Assembly: GCA_025057375.1 (NCBI GenBank)
Contig: JANWWO010000006.1
Location: 1 to 64,000, forward strand
DNA: 64,000 nucleotides
Direction of reading: 5' to 3'
From: Candidatus Absconditabacterales bacterium
GTDB taxonomy: Bacteria > Patescibacteriota > Gracilibacteria > Absconditabacterales > Absconditicoccaceae
Of the stretch, positions 4,294-57,389 are shown in pieces. The stretch's first letter is position 1. The number at the start of each line of letters is the position of its first letter. Both the position numbers and the translations under genes were made by a program. The notes under the pieces are model-generated. The model was not told the DNA's origin, searched no databases, and worked only from the letters and a program-made list of their open reading frames with translations.

Positions 4294-4367
4294 AGCGGAA
4301 GACGGGACTCGAACCCGCAACAGCCTGCTTGGAAGGCAGGAACTCTAGCCAATTGAGTTACTTCCGC
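4294..4367 (-). tRNA. tRNA-Gly(UCC)
   Basis: It forms a full cloverleaf: acceptor GCGGAAG/CTTCCGC, anticodon loop CTTCCAA giving UCC, T-arm GCGGGTTCGAGTCCCGT and discriminator U73 as in bacterial glycine tRNAs. It reads GGA/GGG. A second glycine tRNA, with anticodon UCA, is at 22343. Confidence 0.95.
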
Positions 4368-10780: not shown

Positions 10781-11593
10781 ATGTTTTATTTTTCGCATCC
10801 TATGTTTCTGCTCGTTGATAAACCATTGGGCTGGAGCAGTTTTGATGTTGTTGCACATCTCAAACACCGTCTCCCTCCGCTCGCCTGATGACCAAAAAAA
10901 AGAAAAATCTGACATGGATGAACGTTGGACCCATGAGCAACGGGAGTCTTGATCATTGCAACCGATACCGACACCAAAAAATTAGCAACACTCCTCGCAG
11001 GAAGAAAACGCTATCGTGCATCATTTGAACGAGGAAGAATGACAGATACGCGAGATACGTATCCACGAAACTTTGATCAGTACTATCCACCAACACAAAA
11101 TGGACAATGATGGCTCGTCAACACAAAACCTCAATATCCGCCATCACGCTATCAACGAGAATGATGGCTTACATCACTTCATGGACACGTCACACTCCCC
11201 CTTCCTCCCTTTCGTGCAAGCAAACATCATGGACAACCTGTCTATAAACAGGCAAGAAAGCAGTGATTTGATCCTACCATGATCCCTGAGTCCAAAGAAA
11301 GTTTCATCTATCATATCTCTCCTCTCACCTACGAAGGATGAATATGGGCTCTTGATCTTGAGGTCAGTGGAGGAACGTATATTAGATCGCTTGCATGGTT
11401 GGCGTATACGACATTTGGTATTCCTTGCGTTATGACATCACTGGTCAGAACATGAGTTTCCACCATGCGAGGACGACGAACACTCCACACGCCAGGCGAA
11501 ATATATACAACAGACAAGCTCACCTATCGCATTATTGAGGTACCCAGTGACGCACATATATTGACTACTCCACTGCTTTCTCACTCATCCTAG
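10781..11593 (+). CDS. truB: tRNA pseudouridine-55 synthase TruB
   Basis: This 270-residue enzyme converts U55 in the T-loop of tRNAs to pseudouridine. FLLVDKPLGWSSFDVV opens the fold. KIGHGGTLDPGATGVL contains the catalytic aspartate in GTLDP, and VSGGTYIRSLAWL is the conserved GTYIR block. The start is ATG 10781, directly after holB; a second in-frame ATG at 10802 (MFLLVDKP) fits the family equally well. Glycines of the KIGHGG motif are written TGA. Confidence 0.92.
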
Positions 11594-21645: not shown

Positions 21646-21719
21646 TACTCCCGACGGGATTCGAACCCGTGATTTCCGCCGTGAGAGGGCAGCGTCCTAA
21701 ACCACTAGACCACGAGAGC
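21646..21719 (-). tRNA. tRNA-Glu(CUC)
   Basis: Cloverleaf with acceptor GCTCTCG/CGGGAGT, anticodon loop CTCTCAC giving CUC, T-arm ACGGGTTCGAATCCCGT. Reads GAG. CCA is not encoded. Confidence 0.93.
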
Positions 21720-21726
21720 GAGACAC

Positions 21727-21800
21727 TACCCCCAGAAGGACTCGAACCTTCAACCTACAGCTTAGAAGGCTGTTGCTCTATCCAATTGAGCTATGGGAGT
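21727..21800 (-). tRNA. tRNA-Arg(UCU)
   Basis: Acceptor ACTCCCA/TGGGGGT with one G-U pair, discriminator A, anticodon UCU, T-arm GAAGGTTCGAGTCCTTC. CCA is not encoded. Confidence 0.93.
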
Positions 21801-21813
21801 ATACAAACAAAAA

Positions 21814-21887
21814 TGGATTCTAGGGGATTCGAACCCCTCGCCTCCTCGGTGCAAACGAGGCGCTCTAGCCAAATGAGCTAAGAACCC
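21814..21887 (-). tRNA. tRNA-Ala(UGC)
   Basis: Acceptor GGGTTCT/AGAATCC containing a G3-U70 pair (the alanine identity element), anticodon loop TTTGCAC, discriminator A. Confidence 0.94.
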
Positions 21888-21904
21888 ACATATACAAACG
21901 GATT

Positions 21905-21987
21905 TGGGGAGAACAGGATTTGAACCTGTGTAGGGTCGCCCCGTCAGATTTACAGTCTGATGCAATTGACCGCTCTGCCATCTCCCC
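21905..21987 (-). tRNA. tRNA-Tyr(GUA)
   Basis: Class II tRNA with a long variable arm. Acceptor GGGGAGA/TTCTCCCC, anticodon GUA in CAGACTGTAAATCTG, discriminator A. Confidence 0.95.
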
Positions 21988-21996
21988 ATTTTTTAC

Positions 21997-22239: not shown

Positions 22240-22342
22240 AGTTATTACACAAGCAAGACAAAAAGGTAACAATACTCGACACTTCTAAAAAAACGGCGCA
22301 AACAAGATATCACAAAAAACGAACCAAACAAACGAGAGCAAG

Positions 22343-22416
22343 AGCGAGCAACGGGACTCGAACCCGTACGAGCAGAGCTGAAGTCTGCTATGCTACACCA
22401 ACTACATCATGCTCGC
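22343..22416 (-). tRNA. tRNA-Gly(UCA), reads UGA as glycine
   Basis: Full cloverleaf of 74 bases. Acceptor GCGAGCA/TGCTCGC, anticodon stem GCAGA/TCTGC with loop CTTCAGC, so anticodon UCA (plus-strand tga at 22379-22381), and T-arm ACGGGTTCGAGTCCCGT. It has the bacterial glycine identity set G1-C72, C2-G71, C35 and U73, and shares its T-arm with tRNA-Gly(UCC). It has neither selenocysteine-tRNA features (long variable arm, 8-bp acceptor) nor a tryptophan-type discriminator G. It decodes the in-frame UGA codons seen across the window. Confidence 0.95.
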
Positions 22417-22800: not shown

Positions 22801-25800
22801 TTACCTTACACGAGCTTGGAAGGTAATAACAACAGTATTGCTTCCAACCTCCATTGGGCAGATTCATGCCAATCACAAGAGGCGCCCATTGGTCGTATTC
22901 CCACACCCTCGAACAAATTGGTTGGATCATCATACATCTCTCAATGCTCATTCTGCCAGAATTGAACCATTAGGTTGACGAAGAGACCAACGAGTTGATC
23001 ATGGAATGTACTCCAACGTCGGAGGAAGAACATCAGTCACAGTATACGTGAAAATTCTGCGGTCAGTAATATTTCTTCGTCCAATCTCGTACGTAATTAT
23101 ATCACCAACACGCGGACTTGGAACGGAACGCGATTTAGTAATAACAAAGGGAGGTATCCCAGCTATCACCTCAGCATCACGACATTGCTGCTGAGATCAA
23201 ATCTCAATACATGCTGTTGCACGATTACGGAAAGACACAAGATTTCACCCTCTCGTATTGATTACTCATTGAATTGTAACCACATACTCTGCTCAAGGCA
23301 AGACATCAACCGTCCATATCCTCTGGAAAGGGTTGTCCGATCATCATGGTCATGCCTGAGAAAAATCGGATCATCACAATCAATTTGATCAACTCCATGC
23401 CAAAGGCGTATACCCAAGAGGCAATACATCAAGAAGATTGAGGGTTACTGTCTGCGTTCCATCATTACGGAACCACAATCTATAATCTACTCTCTGCCCA
23501 TCTGCAACAATGATACTTTGCGCTGTAAAATCACTGCCACTTGTGACATTACGTTGTTGTTTGACAAATTGGAAAGGATAAGGACCGACTGCTGTGACGG
23601 TATCAATAATATCTTGTCCATCAGCACGGAGTAATCATGTATTGATATAGGTCCCAAACGTCTGATCAATTACTCATGTAATAATCACAAATCATGATTG
23701 ACCTGGCATTAACGTACCAAGATTTCGGGTCAAACGACGATTAATTTGATCAAACTGTCCTCACCCAAATTGTGTGGGCATAAATCAACGAGGAAGCTCA
23801 TCAATCAATTGGACATTTGTCGCAGGAAGCAATGAACGGTTGATATATGCCAAACGATAAATAAGCGTTGTTCCTGTCATGACCTGTAGCTGTTGATCAC
23901 CAAACGCCGTACCCGTCAGTCTCTGTGTTTTATCAAGAGTCAAAGACGAAAAGAACGCTATCACACTTGCCTGTCCTTGATTTCCATCAACATCAGTCGC
24001 ACGAACCGTATTTCTCAATTCTGTCCCTGTTGCACTCACTGTTCAAGTCAAGAGTAAACGAATTGATGCTCAAACAGGAATATTTGATGCACGTCGACGA
24101 AGTGGTTCCGTTTGAGTAACTGGATGCCCTGACGATGAAGATGCAAGGAGCGTAAATAATCATGCATCGACCACATCCACAATATCAAGTGACGCGATCG
24201 CTGCCTGACCACTATTCCCAATAATAAGCTCATAAACTATGGTATCATTGAATGCAATACTTATCGATCATGTCGTAAATGCTCCCCCACGTGTCACATT
24301 TCTTTGGAATTTGGAAACAACGAGCGACCCACGAGGTCTGGGATCAATAAGAAGTGTCGCAGAACCACTCACTGGTGATTGACAATCTAACTGTGCAAAT
24401 CCTGTATTGATAAGACGCTGACCTGACAAACTATCATCAAGCAATATACGATACGTCCCTGTGATAACAACTGATGAACGAGGAGTAAGCGCACCTAGGC
24501 GTCCTCTCACTCATCTACCACCAAAATCAATGGTCATCCATGATGGTTCTATACTCACCATCTCAATACCATAAGGAAGAAAATCAGAAACCATCACATT
24601 CCATCCTGTCAGTGGTGTATCATTGGTTACAATCAAACGGAACTGCCCAAGTCATCACACTGGTGTTGATCCAGAAAGAAACTGTTTAGTGAGTGTGAGA
24701 CGTGGCTGTTCAAGCTGTGCATCAAGCATAATCTCTGCATCCTGCGTCATCGATCCATCACGAAAACGGACAATATTACGAATCACTGAACTACAGATTG
24801 GTTCACCACGACTGAGTTCAAATTCACGAACAATTTGCCCCTCAATAGTAATTGTACACGATTGATTACCAACAAGTGTTGGAATAGCCCAAGTTGTGGT
24901 AGCCTGATCAAAAGTAATACCAGCACACGTACTCGTTTGCGACCCAAAAGCAAACTGTGAAGGAAACTGCTCTGTAATACGGACATTTGTAAGAGATGAT
25001 GTTCCTGAATTGGTGATAAGCAACTGATACGCTACACGATCTCCACTTGCAAACCTCACCAATCATCCAGTAAATTGTCATCATGCTGGGATATTTGCAG
25101 TGATATTTCTTTGCGTTTTTCTGACCATCAACATTCCTGGATCAACAACATTCACCGTAATTGCAGGACAGGTCATAATGTTCATAAAATGAGTATATCA
25201 TGATGTTTGTGGTGTGAGATTGACAACAAGATTTGATTGCACACGCCCCGTCGCTTGAAATGTTCAAATAGGCAATGTTCCCAATCCATTAACAACAAAT
25301 GTATACAGATGTGAGGAACGAAGGGTTTGGAAGATATTGGGTGTTTGTAATTGATCTGACGGAATTGTTATGGTCAATGGATTAAGTGGAGAAGGCAACG
25401 TCAACGTCATTGATGATGTATACCATCAGGTGAACTGCATCGTCACATTTTGGGTTGATCCTCTTGTAACAGTAACCGAACGTGATGGTGGATTTGATCA
25501 GGCGATGGTTGCGTCGGTACACTCGGGGATAACAGTAATCGTAGCAGAACAATCAGCAGGGAAATCTGGTGTTGACTGTCTTGCAGTTATTTCATTACCT
25601 TGTGCATCAAAGAACCTCACAACCAGTCTCATATCCATCGGTGTCGGATTGAGACGCAAATCACGACTTGTTGCATTGACCGTCAATGCTTGATTGACAC
25701 GAATCCCCGTAAAGAAAATATTGACTGACGCTGGTGATATCTGTCCTGTTGCCAAGATATGATCTGTTCATTGGACATACAATCTTGCATAAGCAACATA

Positions 25801-28800
25801 GTTCCTTCGTGAACCCTGTCCTTGTGATCACCCAAGCATGGCAACCACATCAAAAACATTTTCATTACCACCAGCTGACGCTGTATAGGAAACAAAAGGC
25901 TTGGATGGTTCTAGCCCCAGGCAGACTGGCTGTTCTGCATACAAAATACGCGTACTACATTGCTCATAGAATGGAGGATTGAATCATACTTGTGCGTCCA
26001 ATGGGGTATTCCCATCCATACAAACAACATCATAAAACATCCCTTGTGTAAACCCTACTAGTCCATTATTTTGGAAAAGTGTCGGAAGCAGTCATGGTGC
26101 AGTATAGCTAAATCACGTTGATGGGAAAACTGTAAATCAGTCAGAATTACGATCAAGAAAAATTTGTTGGATAGGAGCATTGGGAGAACCTGCAAGTGGT
26201 GCTGTTGCTCTGATCAAGATTCTTGGGTTACTAACATTCCTTGCATCACAGACGACAGAAAATCTATTTCAAGGTACAAAACTCGTCTGAACTACTCAGT
26301 TATTTGAAACGATAGGTTTGTTGATACAAATTGGTCATTGAACTGGAATATCCATCGTACAGTTTGGAATTGGCTCGACTTGAGCGTTATTGAGGCCAAG
26401 ACGATAACATCATACATTTCATAATCCCTGTGGTCATGGAACAGAGAGAAATGTTCCTGTGCCTCTTTGGGTATTTGGAGATCAATTCACCATCAAAGGA
26501 ATTGTTTGAAGCATCCCATTGACAAGACGAAATCATGCAACAACACGATCGGTTTGGTTAGTTGTTTCACAGTACACTGCCAGTGACTGTCCTATCACCG
26601 CAGGATTGGGAGCCACTCTCATAATACATGTTGGTAGTCCACCAATCGTAATTCTCGCAATACTCGTATAGGCAAGCTCACGAACAAGCGGTGGTCTTGT
26701 ATCATTTGTAGGAGAAGAGACAATGTGAGGAGAACGCGTATCACAACGGAACTCATAGGTATTTCATGGCACAAGACGAGGACGGACCAATGCAGGCAAG
26801 AAACCCTGAAAAGAAAATCTCACTGACGGTGATGAGAGAGGAGGACTTGGAATGAGGTCAGTTGCTATTTTTTCCCATTGTTCAGATCACTGGATTCTCA
26901 TAAAAAGATCAAATCTATCACCATACCATCAGTCACATGTGAAGGGAATAGACTGCGGAATAGCGTCACTTGGATATGTTTGTGAAACCTGTCCATTGAT
27001 CAACATCCTATCTCCTTCTGGTTGGACAGGAAGAGACACATTACATGCTCAAGGAGCTGGATTTGTCGCTGTGGGTGGTCTTTGTCGATCACTTTCAACA
27101 TTTGGATTCCCAAAATTCCACTCTACCTCAAATACAAGAGGATTGGCAAGAATATCATTTCTGGTGAGACGATTTTGTGTCAACGAGACAAGCTGAGCAA
27201 GCGACGTCGTCCATGTATATCTTGCCTGCGTTCTCTGCTCTGCTGTCAATTGCTGAGTATGCACCACAACTCATCAAGGAATTGATCAAGCAACCAAGCG
27301 GATTCTGATCCAATTGGGTGGACGTTGCCCAAGAAGATTGACAAGACTAAATTGTTCAAAATTTGCATTTTGTGATCCATCATCCCAGACAATAAATGTT
27401 CTTGGAAGCTGTGTCTGAGGATCACGAATTTCAAGTGCACAGGCAACAGGCAAATCCTCCACACGAAAATCGAGCGGACAATCAATAAATGGTCTTTGAG
27501 ACTGAAATTGAGGAGCAATTTGTGAGGCAGGAATATTATTTCTTATGGTATATATTGCTCTCATCGAACCAGCCTGCGTAGGCGTAAATGACACAGTAGG
27601 CAAAAAAGATGCAGGAGAAAAAACGACTTGGTTATCCGTAAGCCTGAGAATACGAAACTGCGTGATCGTGTACCATGAGAGAAATCATTGTGCAAACGTT
27701 TGGTTGGGCTGGAAGGTTACGGGAGTATTGATCGTCATCACCGTGGACGTCGGCTGAACAAATGAAGGAAGAGGACAAACGGGTGTCTCAAGCGTACACA
27801 CAGCAGAACATCCATCACCATCAATCGTATTACCATCATCACATTGTTCACCTGGATCGACTGTCCCATCACCACAACGAGTGGGTTGTGACTGGATAAG
27901 CACGGGGATAGGACATTCGACTGCCTGATTTGGTAAGGCTGGATTGATCACAGTCACGAGTCATGTTTGCGTCCCTAGCTGTGTCAATGTCACTTGACGA
28001 GAAAAAGATGCAGATTGAGGACTGATGGGCCCATCAATCAACGTTCCTTGGACACGAAAGCGAGTAAAGACAAAAGGCGAGGGCGTCGTAGCAGAAAATG
28101 TCACCTGCGTAGAGCCATTTTGTAATGTTGCAGGGTTGGGTGTCGCTGACGCAGTGATTAATTCACAACGAGGAAGCACAGGAACGTCTGAGACAATGAG
28201 AGAAACCTGGCATTCTGCGGCCAATGATGGATCTCCACGATTGACGATACGAAAAATACCAGTAAATGTCCCAGCTGTAGGGAAAGAAAATGACTGACTG
28301 GTAAATTGGTTTCTGACTGGATCGAGTGGCGTAAAGCTTGGATCGGTCGCACGTCTAAAGCCATTGATCCCAAACGTTGCTTGATGCTCTGGACGAACCA
28401 ATCCAGAAAATTGTGCTGATCATCAGGCCGTGATCGTTGCAGGAATAGCTTGCCCGATAAAATGGATGGGACAAGAAGGGGTAGGAAGAGGTGTATTTAT
28501 GATTTGACAGGTAGAAGAACACGTCTCTCAGGGAGCGAGAGAGATGCGATTCCCTTGTGCGTCGAGTTTGAAATTTCATTCACATTGTTCATTGATGAGA
28601 TTTATATTTCTTTGATCCCAAAGAACAAAAAGCGTCGGACTAATACGAATCCCATCAAGACCATCCCTACAAGCAGAAGGATTGATAGCGTTTCAGACTG
28701 GAACAAATGATGAAAAATTTGTCGTAGGAGATACACAAGTTGTCGTATTTGCGAATGATGCATTATCAATCACACCATCACCACAACGAGCCACGTATGC

Positions 28801-29445
28801 TGAGTGACATGTGTGAAGAACTTGAGGTCTAAATTGATCTATCGCAACAACTGAAAAGGGGTATATCACCTGATTTCATCACAAAGGAGTTGCTCTCAAA
28901 AACGTAGATGTTGATGCATTTCATTGGTGAAACGTTCTATATACTCACTCCATAACAGCTCCATAACGAACCTCTGTTCTTGAAGATCATGGTGTAGGAG
29001 AAACTTGATTTTGTCACACAAAAGACTCTACAAGGCCATTTGTCACTCATCCAGTATTTACATTTGACATCAACATAAAAGACGATGGCATCGTTGCCAA
29101 TATTCTTGTAGTAAACAACGTATTATTTACCGTTCATGTTCTCAACATAATACCTATTTGGGGATGTCACCCAACTGCTGTCCCAGGCACAAATCACCAC
29201 ACATATTCTGGTGTATATGACTGTCCTTGATATAATCATCTATAGAAAATGTCTGGCTGAAGTGCATCTGTCTGAGCTGAACACAAAGGTAGATATGTTT
29301 GAGAATATACAGATAAAGTAATACTCTGTGCCTGAACATCTTGATTGGTCGGATATACAGACTGTCCATAGGATATCGTCACACCAAACAATCCCATCAT
29401 GACAATAATCCATATACTCTGGATATAGATAATACGAGTATTCAT
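22801..29445 (-). CDS. Giant secreted protein with DUF11-like and DUF4215-like modules
   Basis: One open frame of 2214 residues under code 25; I checked the frame for TAA/TAG throughout. The N-terminus is a signal peptide ([18 protein letters not shown], cut near residue 29). [10 protein letters not shown] (~residue 215) and [20 protein letters not shown] (~520) are Cys-rich DUF4215/myxococcus-type repeats. The C-terminal third (~1430-2214) holds beta-sandwich modules of the DUF11 type, each opening with a similar phrase ([35 protein letters not shown]) and containing [12 protein letters not shown]-like strands. No sortase motif or C-terminal membrane anchor is seen. It is likely an exported cell-surface or adhesion protein. 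It has its own promoter and terminator. Confidence 0.88.
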
Positions 29446-29599: not shown

Positions 29600-32500
29600 C
29601 TATCATTGTCATGAATTCCCAGTTCACCTATTCCCTCATTGACTATTATTCCGTCATTGCCCGTTCCCTCATTGATTATTGTTTTTCCCACTATTTCATC
29701 ATGATTGACTATTTTGTCACTCACTATACTGTCATACAGATGATGCACCTGCTCATGCGACAGAGATACTTTGTGTTTGAGCCATTCTTGAGCTTGCCTT
29801 GGTTTCCATAAGATTGATAGTCAATGCTCATCCTACATCAACTCACTGCACTGTTTCTTTATCATCTTTCTCAAGTGTCAGTTTAAGATCTTCCATCAAG
29901 AATGTCTCATTGAAACATCTTGCGCAAAATCACAACTTGAGATTTCGATGTACTTCAGTAAAAGAAATAGTTTTGCTAGTTCAATCTGCCTGTATTATTT
30001 GTATATCATTTGATTTTCACAACAAAAGATTGCGAATATCAGCAATATCTATTGTTCATGAAACTCACGTTGCCTGTGTAATCATATCCACAATATGATT
30101 TGTCAGTGCTGTATTTTTTGATGTCATTTCTGTCACCATGTATGTTCTCAGAGCAGGATCAGTAATTGGTCAACTTTTTTCTCCATCAGCAAGCGTAGGA
30201 TTGACAAGTGTTTTTTCTGCAAGTCTATGTTGTCAATATTCCTTATCTTGTAAATTATTATATCAAACGGTAAACCCAAAACTATTTTCATTTGTTTGTG
30301 CTTGATATGTTGTTTTTCATTGCATACGAGAAGCAACGTCTTGTCTAATTTGACGCAAAGTACTCAGAGATGAAGAACTAATTCCATGTCATTCTTTGAG
30401 TAAACGATCATTAAAAACAGCATCTCTCTTAGTAAGAATAACATCTGGTTGTAATCAAAAAGCATAACTTCCATTTCATACATATCTGACCTCATGTGAA
30501 ACAGGTGTCAAAACTTCATTTCGCAAAGCAATATACTCCGCACGCTCTTTTTCTTTGGTTCGTGTGCTTGTCCTTGAATCATAACCATGATTTTTCATTG
30601 CCTCTATTTCCGTTTTTACTGTCTGAAAAAAACTATTTTTTCCCAGTAACTGCAACAGTTTATCATACGCATTGGTCAATGACGATGGATTGCTCACATT
30701 TGCTTGATCAAGAGCATTTGTAAAAGCTTTCAATTCATTAACATGTTGTTTAAAGAGATTTGCAAAAATAGATGGATCAGATGCAAGACATGTCTCAATA
30801 CTCTTTTTTGCTTTTGTGATTGAATCTGGATGTAAATTGTACATAAATGTCTCAGTTTTTTTGTACCCATAATTAATAGACATTGTTTCGTTCGCACCCA
30901 ATTTATCAACTGTTCGTGAAAAACGTCAGTTAGTATCTTTTTTGAAGGTAATTTTTTCGTTTGTTTTTCGTGTCACATAGCCGTTCGCATCAAGTCACGG
31001 TGTTTGTCATGGAACAGGAATACCGGTAAACTTGACTTTGATTATTTTATTTATATGATCAACAACAACGTCGTTTTGATCAAGAGGCAAACCGTACATA
31101 CCGCGTTTTGCTTTCAACTTACGAATCGCCTCAGACAAGCATGCAGGAGTAATTAATTCACGTTTCATTTCAGGTCCAGGAAGGTTGTCTCACACAAATC
31201 TTTTTTTCCATCAATCTTGAGCAGTGACTGTTCCATACAACATATCATCCTGAGAACGATTGGTCACTTCGTCTCAAATATTCATTACGTATCATCACTG
31301 ATCATTTCTAATAAATGACGAAAAACGTATCGGTAATGATGCAGGAATCGAAAAATGAGTCCATACAGCATCTCATGCTGATGTATTTTCTGCATCAGAA
31401 AGTTTGATAAATCATTTCCCGGCAATTTTGTGAGATAAGACAAGATTCATCGCATCTGCCTCAACGAGTGATCTTGGGATCAGAATTCTTGTGTGTTCCA
31501 CATGAGATGTATCGAATTCTTTTTTTATAGTAATTTTGTGCTCAGGCCTTAGTTTATTATTGCTATCAAGATATTGTGTATTCTTACGAGAGCTTGGTGG
31601 ATTCCAGTCTTCAAATTTGACTGCAAGCATATCATTCAGAAACGCAACCTTCTCTTCTATTGTTTTGTACAAAAAGGGAAGTTTTTCGTTTCATACTCAT
31701 CTATCAAGTCATCATCTAATCTTGTCTTGATGTCCTGCATCATGGACTTTAATAACTCATTTATGACGCTTAAAACTCACAGCAGCACTAAGAACCGTAA
31801 CAGGTAACGATGCAGCTTTCCCAACAAATTCTCCCAATGATTTTAGGAATCATGGAAACGATCATCGAGTAAATGACGCTCCAATTGAAACTCCTCCAAA
31901 ATACCATTTTCCATCAACCATCTGCATTTTGTCATGCATCCATCACAATGATAATTCTTCTTTAATCAATGAGACCATCATTGCTTTTTTTGATGGGCTA
32001 TCTTGAACTTTATCAAAATCAAAATGATTGAATAGATGAATCATATTATCAACAAGAGCGGTCAGTTGTTCTTGTTCTTGTGCATATTGAGGAAATTTAT
32101 TTTTGATATTGTTCATCACATTTCTTCTACTAGCAAGACTAAGTGGTTGTTTTTCTCTCACAATTTCGTCGATAATTCCTCACACTTGTTTATCAAGAGC
32201 ATTTTTCAAATTGGCAAACTGTCCATAAATCGCATCAAGTTTATCTTGTCTATATCCTGCCCCAAAAGAAATACCATAGGGAGAGACATCCATCCCCACT
32301 CTTGCATATCTTGATGCCTTATCACCCAAACTATTGGTAGCTTTGGGGTTGAGTTGCCGTTCTTTTCACACAAAAGCACTCAAATATGCACCCAAATTAA
32401 CTCACTGTGTCAAACTAAATGTAGCGGATCATCAGGCTCTCACACCTCGATACAATCAATTTTTTTGTTGGAGAAATGTAGGTCAAAAGGTAATTGTTCC

Positions 32501-34618
32501 AGAATCAGTATTCCAAACGGATGCACCTCGATCAAAGGTAAGTGATTGAATCTGTTCTGCCATACCATCAATTCCTTTTTTCCACAGATTGATCGATCAT
32601 CCTGTCCCAATTCCATAGACATTTCTTCTATTTTTTAGGGTCATCTCTTCTTTATCAACAAGATTACCATTTTCATCAACCTCCTGCTCCATACCTTTTA
32701 CCACAAGTTTGCCATTTGGTTCAAAGTAATATTTATTTTCGAGTGCAGCAGTAATAATATGAGCCCTGACTGCTTCTTCAAGTCTCAATACTTGGTCTTT
32801 GGTCATATTTACCTTGTTTGGATTGCTCTCCAATGCGCGCTTCACAGCAGCATCAATGAGATTTTTGTGTTTTGCAAGCAACGCATCAAGGTCCTCATTC
32901 AACTCATTTTCAAGAACAATCTCCTCTGGATTTTGCAAAAGTTTATTATTCTCATCAAATCTACCATCTCCATATCTGAGGACGGGATTGAGCTCTCCAG
33001 GTTTATCATGCACATATTTTTGCATCAACAAAACAGCTGCATGATTTGTTGTGAGTAATTTCTGGAGATTAGCCAGATTCAAGTCTCTTTTCCCACCATT
33101 ACGACATATTTCATTTCGTAAGACATAGCGAATATCTTCAAGTCACTCTTTGTACGCATATCTTCCTATAGCTTCAAGAAAATTGAGCATCACTTCTTTT
33201 GTTGCGTCTTGTTTGGATAGTCATTTTTCTCACATCACTACGGGGATCGCTTCTTTAAACTTCTGAACAATCGCAGGTCATGAAACTGTATTTCAATCTC
33301 TATGATCAGCAACGCCATTATTGTCATCGTCTGCTGCCGATAGTGCAAGAAATCTGAATGTTGAATCCACATCTCATGATGACATATATGTTTGTATTCT
33401 TGAATCCTGAAAAAGTGACATACGATTACGCAAATCATCAGCATCTTTCCCAAGTGCAGCAGCCAAAACAAGTTGTTTTTCCAGAGATGGAGTGAGTGTG
33501 GGTGTTTCATATGTTGCTCAATACAGCTCTATAATTGTTGCACGATCAAGAGGCGGTGTTGAATAACGTGGATCTGTATAGGTAGCAATAATTGATTCCC
33601 GATGTTTTTGTACATTCTTACCTTGTGATTGTTGTTTCATCAACTCATCATACTTTGCTTTTTTTTGTGCGTCTGATGATGAAGCATTTACAGGATCACG
33701 AAGTCGTTGCTGATATGCATAGTCTACACCTGCTTTGATTTTCTGATGCAAATCTCCACTTAGTCTTGCATAATCTCCTGCATTCGCGAGTTTTGTATAT
33801 TTCTCAACTGTTTCTTTGGGCTTGTTAGACATTGTTGCAAGAGCCAAGTCAACTGCTCATTTTCTCACCTCTTTTACTTCGGGTGTCATTTGATCCACAT
33901 ATCTTGTGTTATCTTGACGGAACTGAGACACTCCTTCTTTTACTCACATATCAAGTTCTCATCTACTAGATGCGTCTTTAAACTGTCACCACACCATTGA
34001 CAACCATGGATATTTCTCTGTTGCCTTTCCCTTGTCAACAACAGAAAATTGCTGGCCCAATCTCAAAAGATAACGAGAATCTTTTTTTCTAAGTAGTCAA
34101 TTACTATCTGTTGTTATTCCAAGCTCATTGTTGTCTATTTTTTGTTCCCATTGCTCCAATGTAAGTGGAATATCTCCATTATTTCTAATTTGTTTGACGA
34201 TCTCAATAATGATATTCCCCAATGTATTTTGATCTCCATTTCATCGCACTCACAATGCTTTGAGTCATGTACGAAACTCTTTAATTTCTTGTTTATCTTC
34301 TGGTGTTGGAGTAAATCCAAAATCCCAATCATCACCATCTGATAACGCACGCAATGATTTACGCCATGATTCTACCTTTCCATCTCACGGAGTCAATCAC
34401 AAAATCTCATACCTCGCAAGAACCTCATCTCTTAGTTCTCCTGTCTTTTTTTTGACTTCTTCTATAATTGCTCATGGGCTTTCTGTCTCTTCCTTTCATT
34501 TTTCAGCTCTGCCTCACCAATCAGCTTTGTCTTTGTCATCCTGTCATGAAGAAGAAGCTCATTCACGCACGTTAATCAATGATGATCATGATTCTTGATA
34601 TAATAAAAAACGCACCAT
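29600..34618 (-). CDS. Very large protein of unknown function with Gly/Asn/Gln-rich tail
   Basis: A single frame of 1672 residues (ATG 34618, TAG 29600-29602) with no TAA/TAG inside. Most is predicted helical and charged, with KKKTGELRDEVLARYEI early and FDENNKLLQNPEEIVLENEL and RALESNPNKVNMTKDQVLRL near the middle. No signal peptide or membrane span is clear, though the region just upstream in the same frame is hydrophobic. The last ~60 residues are low complexity (GGNSGKNNNQGGNGQGRNNS and similar), largely TGA-encoded glycine. No family recognised. The location between a giant exported protein and a divergent unknown gene suggests a shared surface or host-interaction role. Confidence 0.8.
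29602..29740. repeat. Degenerate short repeats encoding the Gly/Asn/Gln tail
   Basis: Variants of cattgac, tattatt, ccctcattg and ccgttccctcattgattatt recur through this stretch on the plus strand. On the coding strand they read as GGN, GQG and NNS units. Confidence 0.7.
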
Positions 34619-34817
34619 TCACAAGAAAAAAATAAAAAAGGAACATATTCCCCATAATAATACCTATTCTCTCCAAAAAAGCAAAAAAATACACACTGAC
34701 AGATAATAACTGTTGACTTTTTTGTATTTTCATGCAATTGCCATTCATGGTCCAACTGTTGCCACGTTATATATAGTAAAAAAGTCAAGGCTTTCATCCT
34801 GAATGTATAAGAAAAAG

Positions 34818-55445: not shown

Positions 55446-57389
55446 ATGGCCATTCGTAATTTTTGTATCATTGCTCATATTGATCATGGTAAGTCGACGC
55501 TTGCTGATCGTATGCTCGAAATTACTGCGTCAGTCAAAAAAGTGTCAAATGCTCAAATGCTGGATAGCATGGATATCGAGCAAGAACGTGGAATCACCAT
55601 CAAACTCACCCCTGCCAGGATGTCGCGAAAAAATACCGAACTCAATCTCATCGATACTCCCTGACACGTTGATTTCCAATACGAAGTCTCTCGTTCTCTT
55701 GCTGCTGTCGAAGGAGCTGTTTTGCTTATAGATGCATCCCAAGGAATTCAAGCACAAACACTCTCCACTCTGTACGCCGCCATGGAACATAACCTCACCA
55801 TCATTCCCGTTTTGAACAAGATTGATCTGCCTGCTGCAAATCCTGAAAGAGTCACGGATGAGATCGAGCATTTGCTTGGCATTGATCGTCGTGAAATTAT
55901 CAAAATTTCTGCTAAAACAGGAATGAATGTTGATCAGGTTTTGGACGCTATTATCGAGAGAATACCTGCTCCACGTATTGACCCAACACAAGGGGACAAA
56001 GCCCTCATTTTTGACTCGATTTACGATCCCTACAGGGGTGTCGTGGTCTACGTCAAAGTCGTCAGTGGTTCTTTTTCCAAAGGAATATCATGTCAACTGA
56101 TCCATTCGGACACTGAAATGTCGCCTACCGAAGTTGGGGCATTGACTCCTCGCTACTTGCCGACTCAAACCCTCACTGCCGGACAGATTGGCTACATCGT
56201 TACTGGGAAAAAATCCGTCCGTGATGCACAAATTGGTGATACGATTGTCACCTGACTGCCTCCCAAAATAGGATGGACAGATCGTTTGACCTATGCCATT
56301 CCATGATTCAAAAAAGTCAAACCTTTTATCTATGCGTGAGTCTATCCGGTTGAGACAAATGAGTATGATAAACTTGCTGATGCATTTGGAAAATTGGTGC
56401 TCAACGATAGTGCAGTAGATTGTAGTCCCGAAAATTCTGGTGCGTTGGGATTGGGTTTTCGTTGTGGATTTTTGGGGATGTTGCATATGGATATTATCAA
56501 AGAAAGACTAGCAAGAGAATATGGTGTAGAAACAGTGTTTACAACACCGACCGTGTCCTATATCATCAAACTCAAAGACACTGCCTGGAGAATCTTGCAG
56601 GGAAAGGATAATTTGATTAAATTGCGAGAAAGTGGATTGTGGCGTGAGGTTGACCGCATCTGTGGACGTGAAAGTAAGCAACGAACCAAAGACTTGTTTT
56701 TGACGCAAACAGGCGATACATATGCATTATGGACAGTGGTCACCTCCGGTGCTGATATGATAGACAAATCACAGATTGAATCAATGTATGAACCCATGAC
56801 TGAGACAGAAGTGGTTGCCCCCAGTGAATATACAGGGGCCATTATGGCATTGTGTCAAGACCATAGAGCCACCCTCAAAGCAATGGAGCATATTGATCAG
56901 ACAAGAATAATTTGGCGTTATTACTTCCCACTAGGTGAGCTCATTATCGATTTTTATGATAAACTCAAATCTGCAACCAAAGGATATGCAACGATGAACT
57001 ATGAAGCAAAAAATTACACTGAGAGTAATTTGGTGAAACTTGATATTCTCATCAATGGCGACGTTATCGAAGCATTCTCAATGGTCGTCCATAATGACAA
57101 AGCATACAGTGTAGGGAAAGATTTGGTAGAGAGGTTAAAAGTGCTGATTCCACGCCACCTTTTTGCTATCCCCATCCAAGCAGCAATCGGAACCAAAATC
57201 ATCGCTCGTGAAACTATTCCTGCAATCCGTAAAGATGTCCTGAGCAAATGTTATGGAGGTGATGTTTCCAGAAAACGTAAATTGCTCGAAAAACAAAAAG
57301 AAGGGAAAAAGAAAATGAAAGCGATGGGGAATGTCAACATCCCATCAGATATATTTCTCAAAATGATACAATGATGAGGCCAATCATAA
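55446..57389 (+). CDS. lepA: Elongation factor 4 (LepA)
   Basis: This 647-residue ribosome-bound GTPase promotes back-translocation or assembly quality control. G-domain motifs are [15 protein letters not shown] (G1), ERGITIK (G2), [14 protein letters not shown] (G3) and PVLNKIDLP (G4). The invariant glycine of DTPGH is TGA at 55662-55664. LepA-specific C-terminal sequence includes [20 protein letters not shown] and [20 protein letters not shown], ending [20 protein letters not shown]. The last residues IQGGGQS include two tandem TGA codons before TAA. Confidence 0.97.

Follow-up and report, generated by a model that had tools for sequence, protein, structure and literature searches.

The locus considered here raises the question of how UGA, a stop codon in the standard code, is read in a bacterium that encodes a tRNA with the anticodon UCA, and whether NCBI translation table 25 describes the code of this organism in full. 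The analysed stretch of DNA (the window) comprises 64,000 nucleotides; the source genome is a draft of 1,129,355 bases in 21 contigs with an estimated completeness of 97%. The reading that we favour, with a probability of about 0.96, is that the gene encodes a dedicated tRNA-Gly(UCA) of Absconditabacteria (SR1) that would translate UGA as glycine in a lineage that lost release factor 2 (RF2), while CGA and CGG are most likely tryptophan codons in the same genome.

Codon meanings in the source genome

To assess codon meaning, E. coli K-12 proteins encoded in ten stretches of that chromosome were aligned to every reading frame of the whole source genome, in which TGA, CGA and CGG had been masked; antisense E. 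coli ORFs were left out of the count. Of the 499 aligned TGA codons, 291 faced a glycine residue in E. coli, and tryptophan was not among the five commonest residues. Glycine was the best single reading of TGA (delta logL 485), the residue profile resembled those of GGA, GGT, GGC and GGG, and TGA made up 31% of these glycine codons. The first-pass annotation had noted that glycine positions are spelled by an in-frame TGA dozens of times, and this observation holds. For instance, the gene for LepA (EF-4; 55446–57389, plus strand; 647 aa with TGA as glycine), identified by Pfam and by alignment to E. coli LepA, carries in-frame TGA at invariant glycines, among them that of the G3 motif (DTPGH), spelled NLIDTP(TGA)HVDF. 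A TruB-like protein of 270 aa (10781–11593, plus strand; ORF, Pfam and alignment) contains 10 in-frame TGA codons, and alignments of TruB and of the RpoA, RpsD and methionine aminopeptidase homologues in the window likewise placed TGA at glycine positions. Two giant ORFs on the minus strand near the UCA tRNA (22801–29445 and 29600–34624; 2214 and 1674 aa) have 75 in-frame TGA codons each; the former contains DUF11-type and cysteine-rich repeats, and the latter gave no NCBIfam match.

NCBI table 25 changes the meaning of UGA only and retains CGA and CGG as arginine codons. In the source genome, however, tryptophan was favoured over arginine by 78.6 logL units for CGA (79 aligned codons) and by 16.7 logL units for CGG (nine aligned codons). 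Most of this evidence lies outside the window, within which only 10 CGA codons were alignable. CGA was found at the tryptophans of the IleS motifs WDCHGLP and WTTTPWT, of NQGW in release factor 1 (RF1) and of WWQYFV in glycyl-tRNA synthetase (GlyRS), and CGG at the tryptophan of FGEMEVWALEAY in RpoB. The genome also encodes tRNAs with the anticodons CCG (L038:5323-5395, plus strand) and UCG (L046:6389-6462, plus strand). Both have G73 and lack A20, unlike tRNA-Arg(GCG), and G73 is likewise present in the tRNA-Trp of the genome. These tRNAs would fit tryptophan, matching the alignments, and CGA and CGG are most likely tryptophan codons, so that the code is best described as table 25 plus CGA/CGG as tryptophan. 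The alternative that table 25 is used exactly as defined could draw on the standard use of this table in annotating SR1 genomes (PMC4463531), on the nine aligned CGA codons that do face arginine and on ARAGORN, which calls the UCG and CCG tRNAs arginine tRNAs from their anticodons. Against it stand the likelihood differences, the spelling of invariant tryptophans of IleS, RpoB and RF1 as CGA or CGG, the G73 without A20 in both tRNAs and the fact that the tryptophan assignment has already been published for Absconditabacteria (PMC8629427). We regard strict adherence to table 25 as very unlikely. The earlier statement that the code is settled as code 25 goes too far: its UGA part is strongly supported, and it is incomplete with respect to CGA and CGG.

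The UCA tRNA and its orthologues

The tRNA gene occupies positions 22343–22416 on the minus strand, a strand assignment that we add to the first-pass annotation. The Rfam tRNA model matched exactly this interval (59.2 bits, E 3e-10), and ARAGORN reported a tRNA at 22342–22416 with the anticodon tca, which it labelled tRNA-SeC from the anticodon alone. The anticodon UCA, which would read UGA, lies at 22379–22381 (tga on the plus strand). The 74-nt sequence, GCGAGCA TG ATGT AGTTGGTGTA GCAT A GCAGA CTTCAGC TCTGC TCGT ACGGG TTCGAGT CCCGT TGCTCGC T, forms a class I cloverleaf, as had been proposed, with all seven acceptor pairs, a short variable loop, a D-stem ATGT/GCAT, an anticodon stem GCAGA/TCTGC and a T-stem ACGGG/CCCGT. 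The anticodon loop is CUUCAGC, with G37, and the 3′ CCA is not encoded. Thermodynamic folding of the lone strand did not return a cloverleaf (z –0.96, no significance); structural support was taken instead from the covariance-model score and from covariation among orthologues.

The glycine elements named in the first-pass annotation (G1-C72, C2-G71, C35 and U73) were all recovered from the sequence, and G3:C70 completes the usual glycine identity set of bacterial tRNAs. G1:C72, C2:G71, G3:C70 and U73 also serve as the criteria for glycine tRNAs in PMC8629427. The noted likeness to tRNA-Gly(UCC) at 4294–4367 (minus strand; ARAGORN and alignment) was borne out as well: the T-arms differ by a single base (ACGGG vs GCGGG), and the comparison gene shares G1:C72, C2:G71 and U73. 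The identity elements support glycylation of the UCA tRNA, though they are no proof of charging. A parent of this tRNA did not emerge from comparison with other tRNAs, the best identities being 0.55–0.61 to several of them against a background of 0.52 ± 0.09, and the viral contigs scanned contained no exact match to this UCA tRNA or to the second form described below.

Among 192 genomes of the same class, high-similarity matches were confined to the source genome's own family (f1). A single pattern recovered an intact UCA tRNA in 64 of 67 related loci, drawn from two overlapping genome collections; these represent 20 distinct sequences, all of 74 nt. The acceptor stem was fully paired (7/7) in all 20. 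Pairs 4-69, 5-68, 6-67 and 7-66 were variously G-C, A-U or another standard pair, and always remained paired, whereas 1-72 (GC), 2-71 (CG) and U73 were invariant in 20/20 and 3-70 was GC in 19/20. The anticodon loop was (C/A)UUCAGC throughout, and G37 never changed. Given the 64 intact loci, the 20 sequences and the substitutions at both partners of several pairs, the UCA tRNA is not a chance resemblance; invariant identity positions combined with a covarying stem are what a functional tRNA maintained for a single synthetase would show, as judged from these comparisons. Synteny was also maintained: the gene is followed downstream by a cluster of tRNA genes for Tyr(GUA), Ala(UGC), Arg(UCU) and Glu(CUC) (21646–21988, minus strand; ARAGORN), and the same four genes adjoin the UCA tRNA in most orthologous loci. 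A scan of named genomes with a 37-base pattern of the UCA tRNA returned 37 stretches, whose titles included ‘candidate division SR1 bacterium’, ‘Candidatus Absconditabacteria’ and the complete genome CP006913.1 RAAC1_SR1_1. Some were titled Gracilibacteria or Peribacteria, probably as loose MAG labels. This distribution places the host among the Absconditabacteria (SR1).

Release factor, synthetase and the decoding of UGA

A search for release factors revealed a single gene of the RF-1 family in the source genome (L001:1384-2457, minus strand). Its product passed the curated cut-off of the RF1 model (447 vs 423 bits) and failed that of the RF2 model (252 vs 370 bits), identifying it as RF1. 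No RF2 above the curated cut-off was detected in the genome at its estimated 97% completeness; prfB, whose absence the first-pass annotation had proposed as a check, is indeed missing, which leaves RF1 as the sole release factor detected. The catalytic GGQ motif of RF1, which aligns to the GGQ of solved RF1 structures, is itself spelled TGA-TGA-Q, and therefore the only release factor could not be made unless UGA were read as glycine. An RF2 above the cut-off was lacking in all 65 genomes from families f1, f14, f22 and f24 and was present in 115 of 127 other genomes of the class. GlyRS is encoded by one gene of the dimeric family, and the alpha chain of the alpha2beta2 enzyme is absent from the genome. 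The GlyRS gene, too, has in-frame TGA within conserved motifs, which require TGA to mean glycine.

A tRNA with a UCA anticodon might also be a selenocysteine tRNA (selC), as the anticodon itself and the ARAGORN label would suggest. Such a tRNA has a long variable arm, an 8-bp acceptor stem and SelB as its partner, whereas the UCA tRNA has a class I fold in which the variable loop is short and the acceptor stem counts 7 bp. No SelB scored over the cut-off in the source genome (the best match, at 191 of 242 bits, is most probably EF-Tu) and TGA is found at hundreds of conserved glycine positions; these two observations refute the selC reading, to which we attach a probability near the bottom of the scale. 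Least probable, to a vanishing degree, is a reading of UGA as tryptophan, the commonest bacterial UGA reassignment, known from mycoplasma code 4, for which it could be said that the UCA anticodon differs from the anticodon of tRNA-Trp(CCA) by a single base: the alignment profile described above already refutes it, and U73 and C2:G71 are glycine-like, with G73 in the tRNA-Trp of the genome. Mycoplasma code 4 likewise involves a lost RF2 and a newly acquired UCA tRNA; both features are common to the two systems, while the amino acid and the tRNA identity elements differ.

Translation of UGA as glycine by the UCA tRNA, as claimed in the first-pass annotation, is strongly supported by the TGA profile, the absence of RF2 and the conservation of the orthologues, and sequence data could not make it more certain. 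In the mechanism that we propose, the single dimeric-type GlyRS would charge the UCA tRNA by way of G1:C72, C2:G71, G3:C70, C35 and U73, and the UCA anticodon would then read UGA, so that glycine is inserted. With RF2 lost, no competitor for UGA would remain, and RF1 would terminate at UAA and UAG. The UCG and CCG tRNAs, with their tryptophan-like features (G73, no A20), would read CGA and CGG.

The wobble position adds a further aspect. U34 tRNAs of split codon boxes, the UCA tRNA included, would normally need modification by MnmE/MnmG. With E. coli queries, no homologue of MnmG was found in the source genome, and MnmE matched only an EngA-type GTPase. MiaA is present, and G37 of the UCA tRNA cannot take the MiaA modification. 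U34 of the UCA tRNA could wobble to UGG, and the gene content found offers no means by which UGG would stay a tryptophan codon, a point against the favoured reading. The modification states of U34 and G37 in this tRNA are given here as predictions.

Known systems and a second UCA tRNA form

UGA as a glycine codon was described for SR1 by Campbell et al. 2013 PNAS (as cited in PMC8629427, PMC4463531 and PMC13092985), so that the reassignment in the Absconditabacteria lineage has been published since 2013, and our finding is real, but not new. As far as these citing papers relate it, the tRNA-Gly(UCA) of SR1/Absconditabacteria comes from the same lineage as ours, has the same anticodon and the same set of glycine identity elements and gives UGA the same meaning, with nothing essential different. 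For a BD1-5 bacterium (Gracilibacteria), proteomic support for UGA as glycine has been presented (PMC4032931) and loss of prfB reported for BD1-5 (PMC6851277); Gracilibacteria resemble the source genome in the meaning of UGA, in the lost RF2 and in a UCA tRNA with GCG...CGC and U73. Shulgina & Eddy 2021 (PMC8629427) assigned CGA and CGG to tryptophan in Absconditabacteria on top of UGA as glycine, and the Absconditabacteria of that study are like the source genome in this assignment, with UCG and CCG tRNAs that have G73 and no A20. CGA is relatively frequent in the source genome (79 aligned positions vs 133 for TGG), a resemblance to those species that the same study describes as ‘more advanced’.

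Codon alignments indicated that families f14, f22 and f24 also read TGA as glycine. A second UCA tRNA form, with GCG...CGC and U73, was present in 11/11 f14 and 4/5 f22 genomes searched. The body of this tRNA (L206 in G091; L316-L328), found in families that are Gracilibacteria-like, a name that we infer, is unlike the SR1 form: it has A37, a D-loop without GG, a T-loop TTC(A/G)AAC and an encoded CCA, whereas the f1 form is distinguished by G37, the D-arm ATGT/GCAT and synteny with the Tyr-Ala-Arg-Glu cluster. The two forms are 53–54% identical, compared with a background of 52% ± 9% among the tRNAs of the source genome, and within each clade its own form is highly conserved. Our first pattern (T-loop TTCRANTC), followed by Rfam and ARAGORN on the best loci, had missed the f14 tRNA, and it had missed the f22 form too; the idea that f14 reads UGA as glycine without a UCA tRNA was dropped when a looser pattern found the tRNA in all 11 f14 genomes. 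In f24, no UCA tRNA was found in the 373 kb examined of a genome of about 1.0 Mb. The f24 genome G141 uses TGA as glycine at lower frequency and retains CGA and CGG as arginine codons, which may represent an earlier step in this recoding. As a separate observation, a tRNA-like gene in another genome (L221; G034:C8:46962-47140) combines a normal acceptor, D- and T-arm with an anticodon arm that extends over about 80 nt and is read by ARAGORN only as an intron-bearing tRNA-Thr(AGU).

It is conceivable, at somewhat less than even odds, that two unrelated UCA tRNA bodies serve the same meaning of UGA in related lineages of the class, the reassignment having occurred more than once or the tRNA having been replaced after the loss of RF2. 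The divergence between the f1 and f14/f22 bodies could reflect either replacement or double recruitment, or else very fast early divergence; genes of 75 bases carry little signal. The observation of two bodies is possibly new.

Codon reassignment is rare in bacteria, and the source genome would combine two reassignments at once, from stop to glycine and, most likely, of two arginine codons to tryptophan. A gene caller that applied table 25 only would place arginine at real tryptophans, for example in IleS and RpoB. If a proper phylogeny confirms them, these distinct tRNA bodies would inform the question of whether recoding at the cost of a release factor can recur or be rewired.
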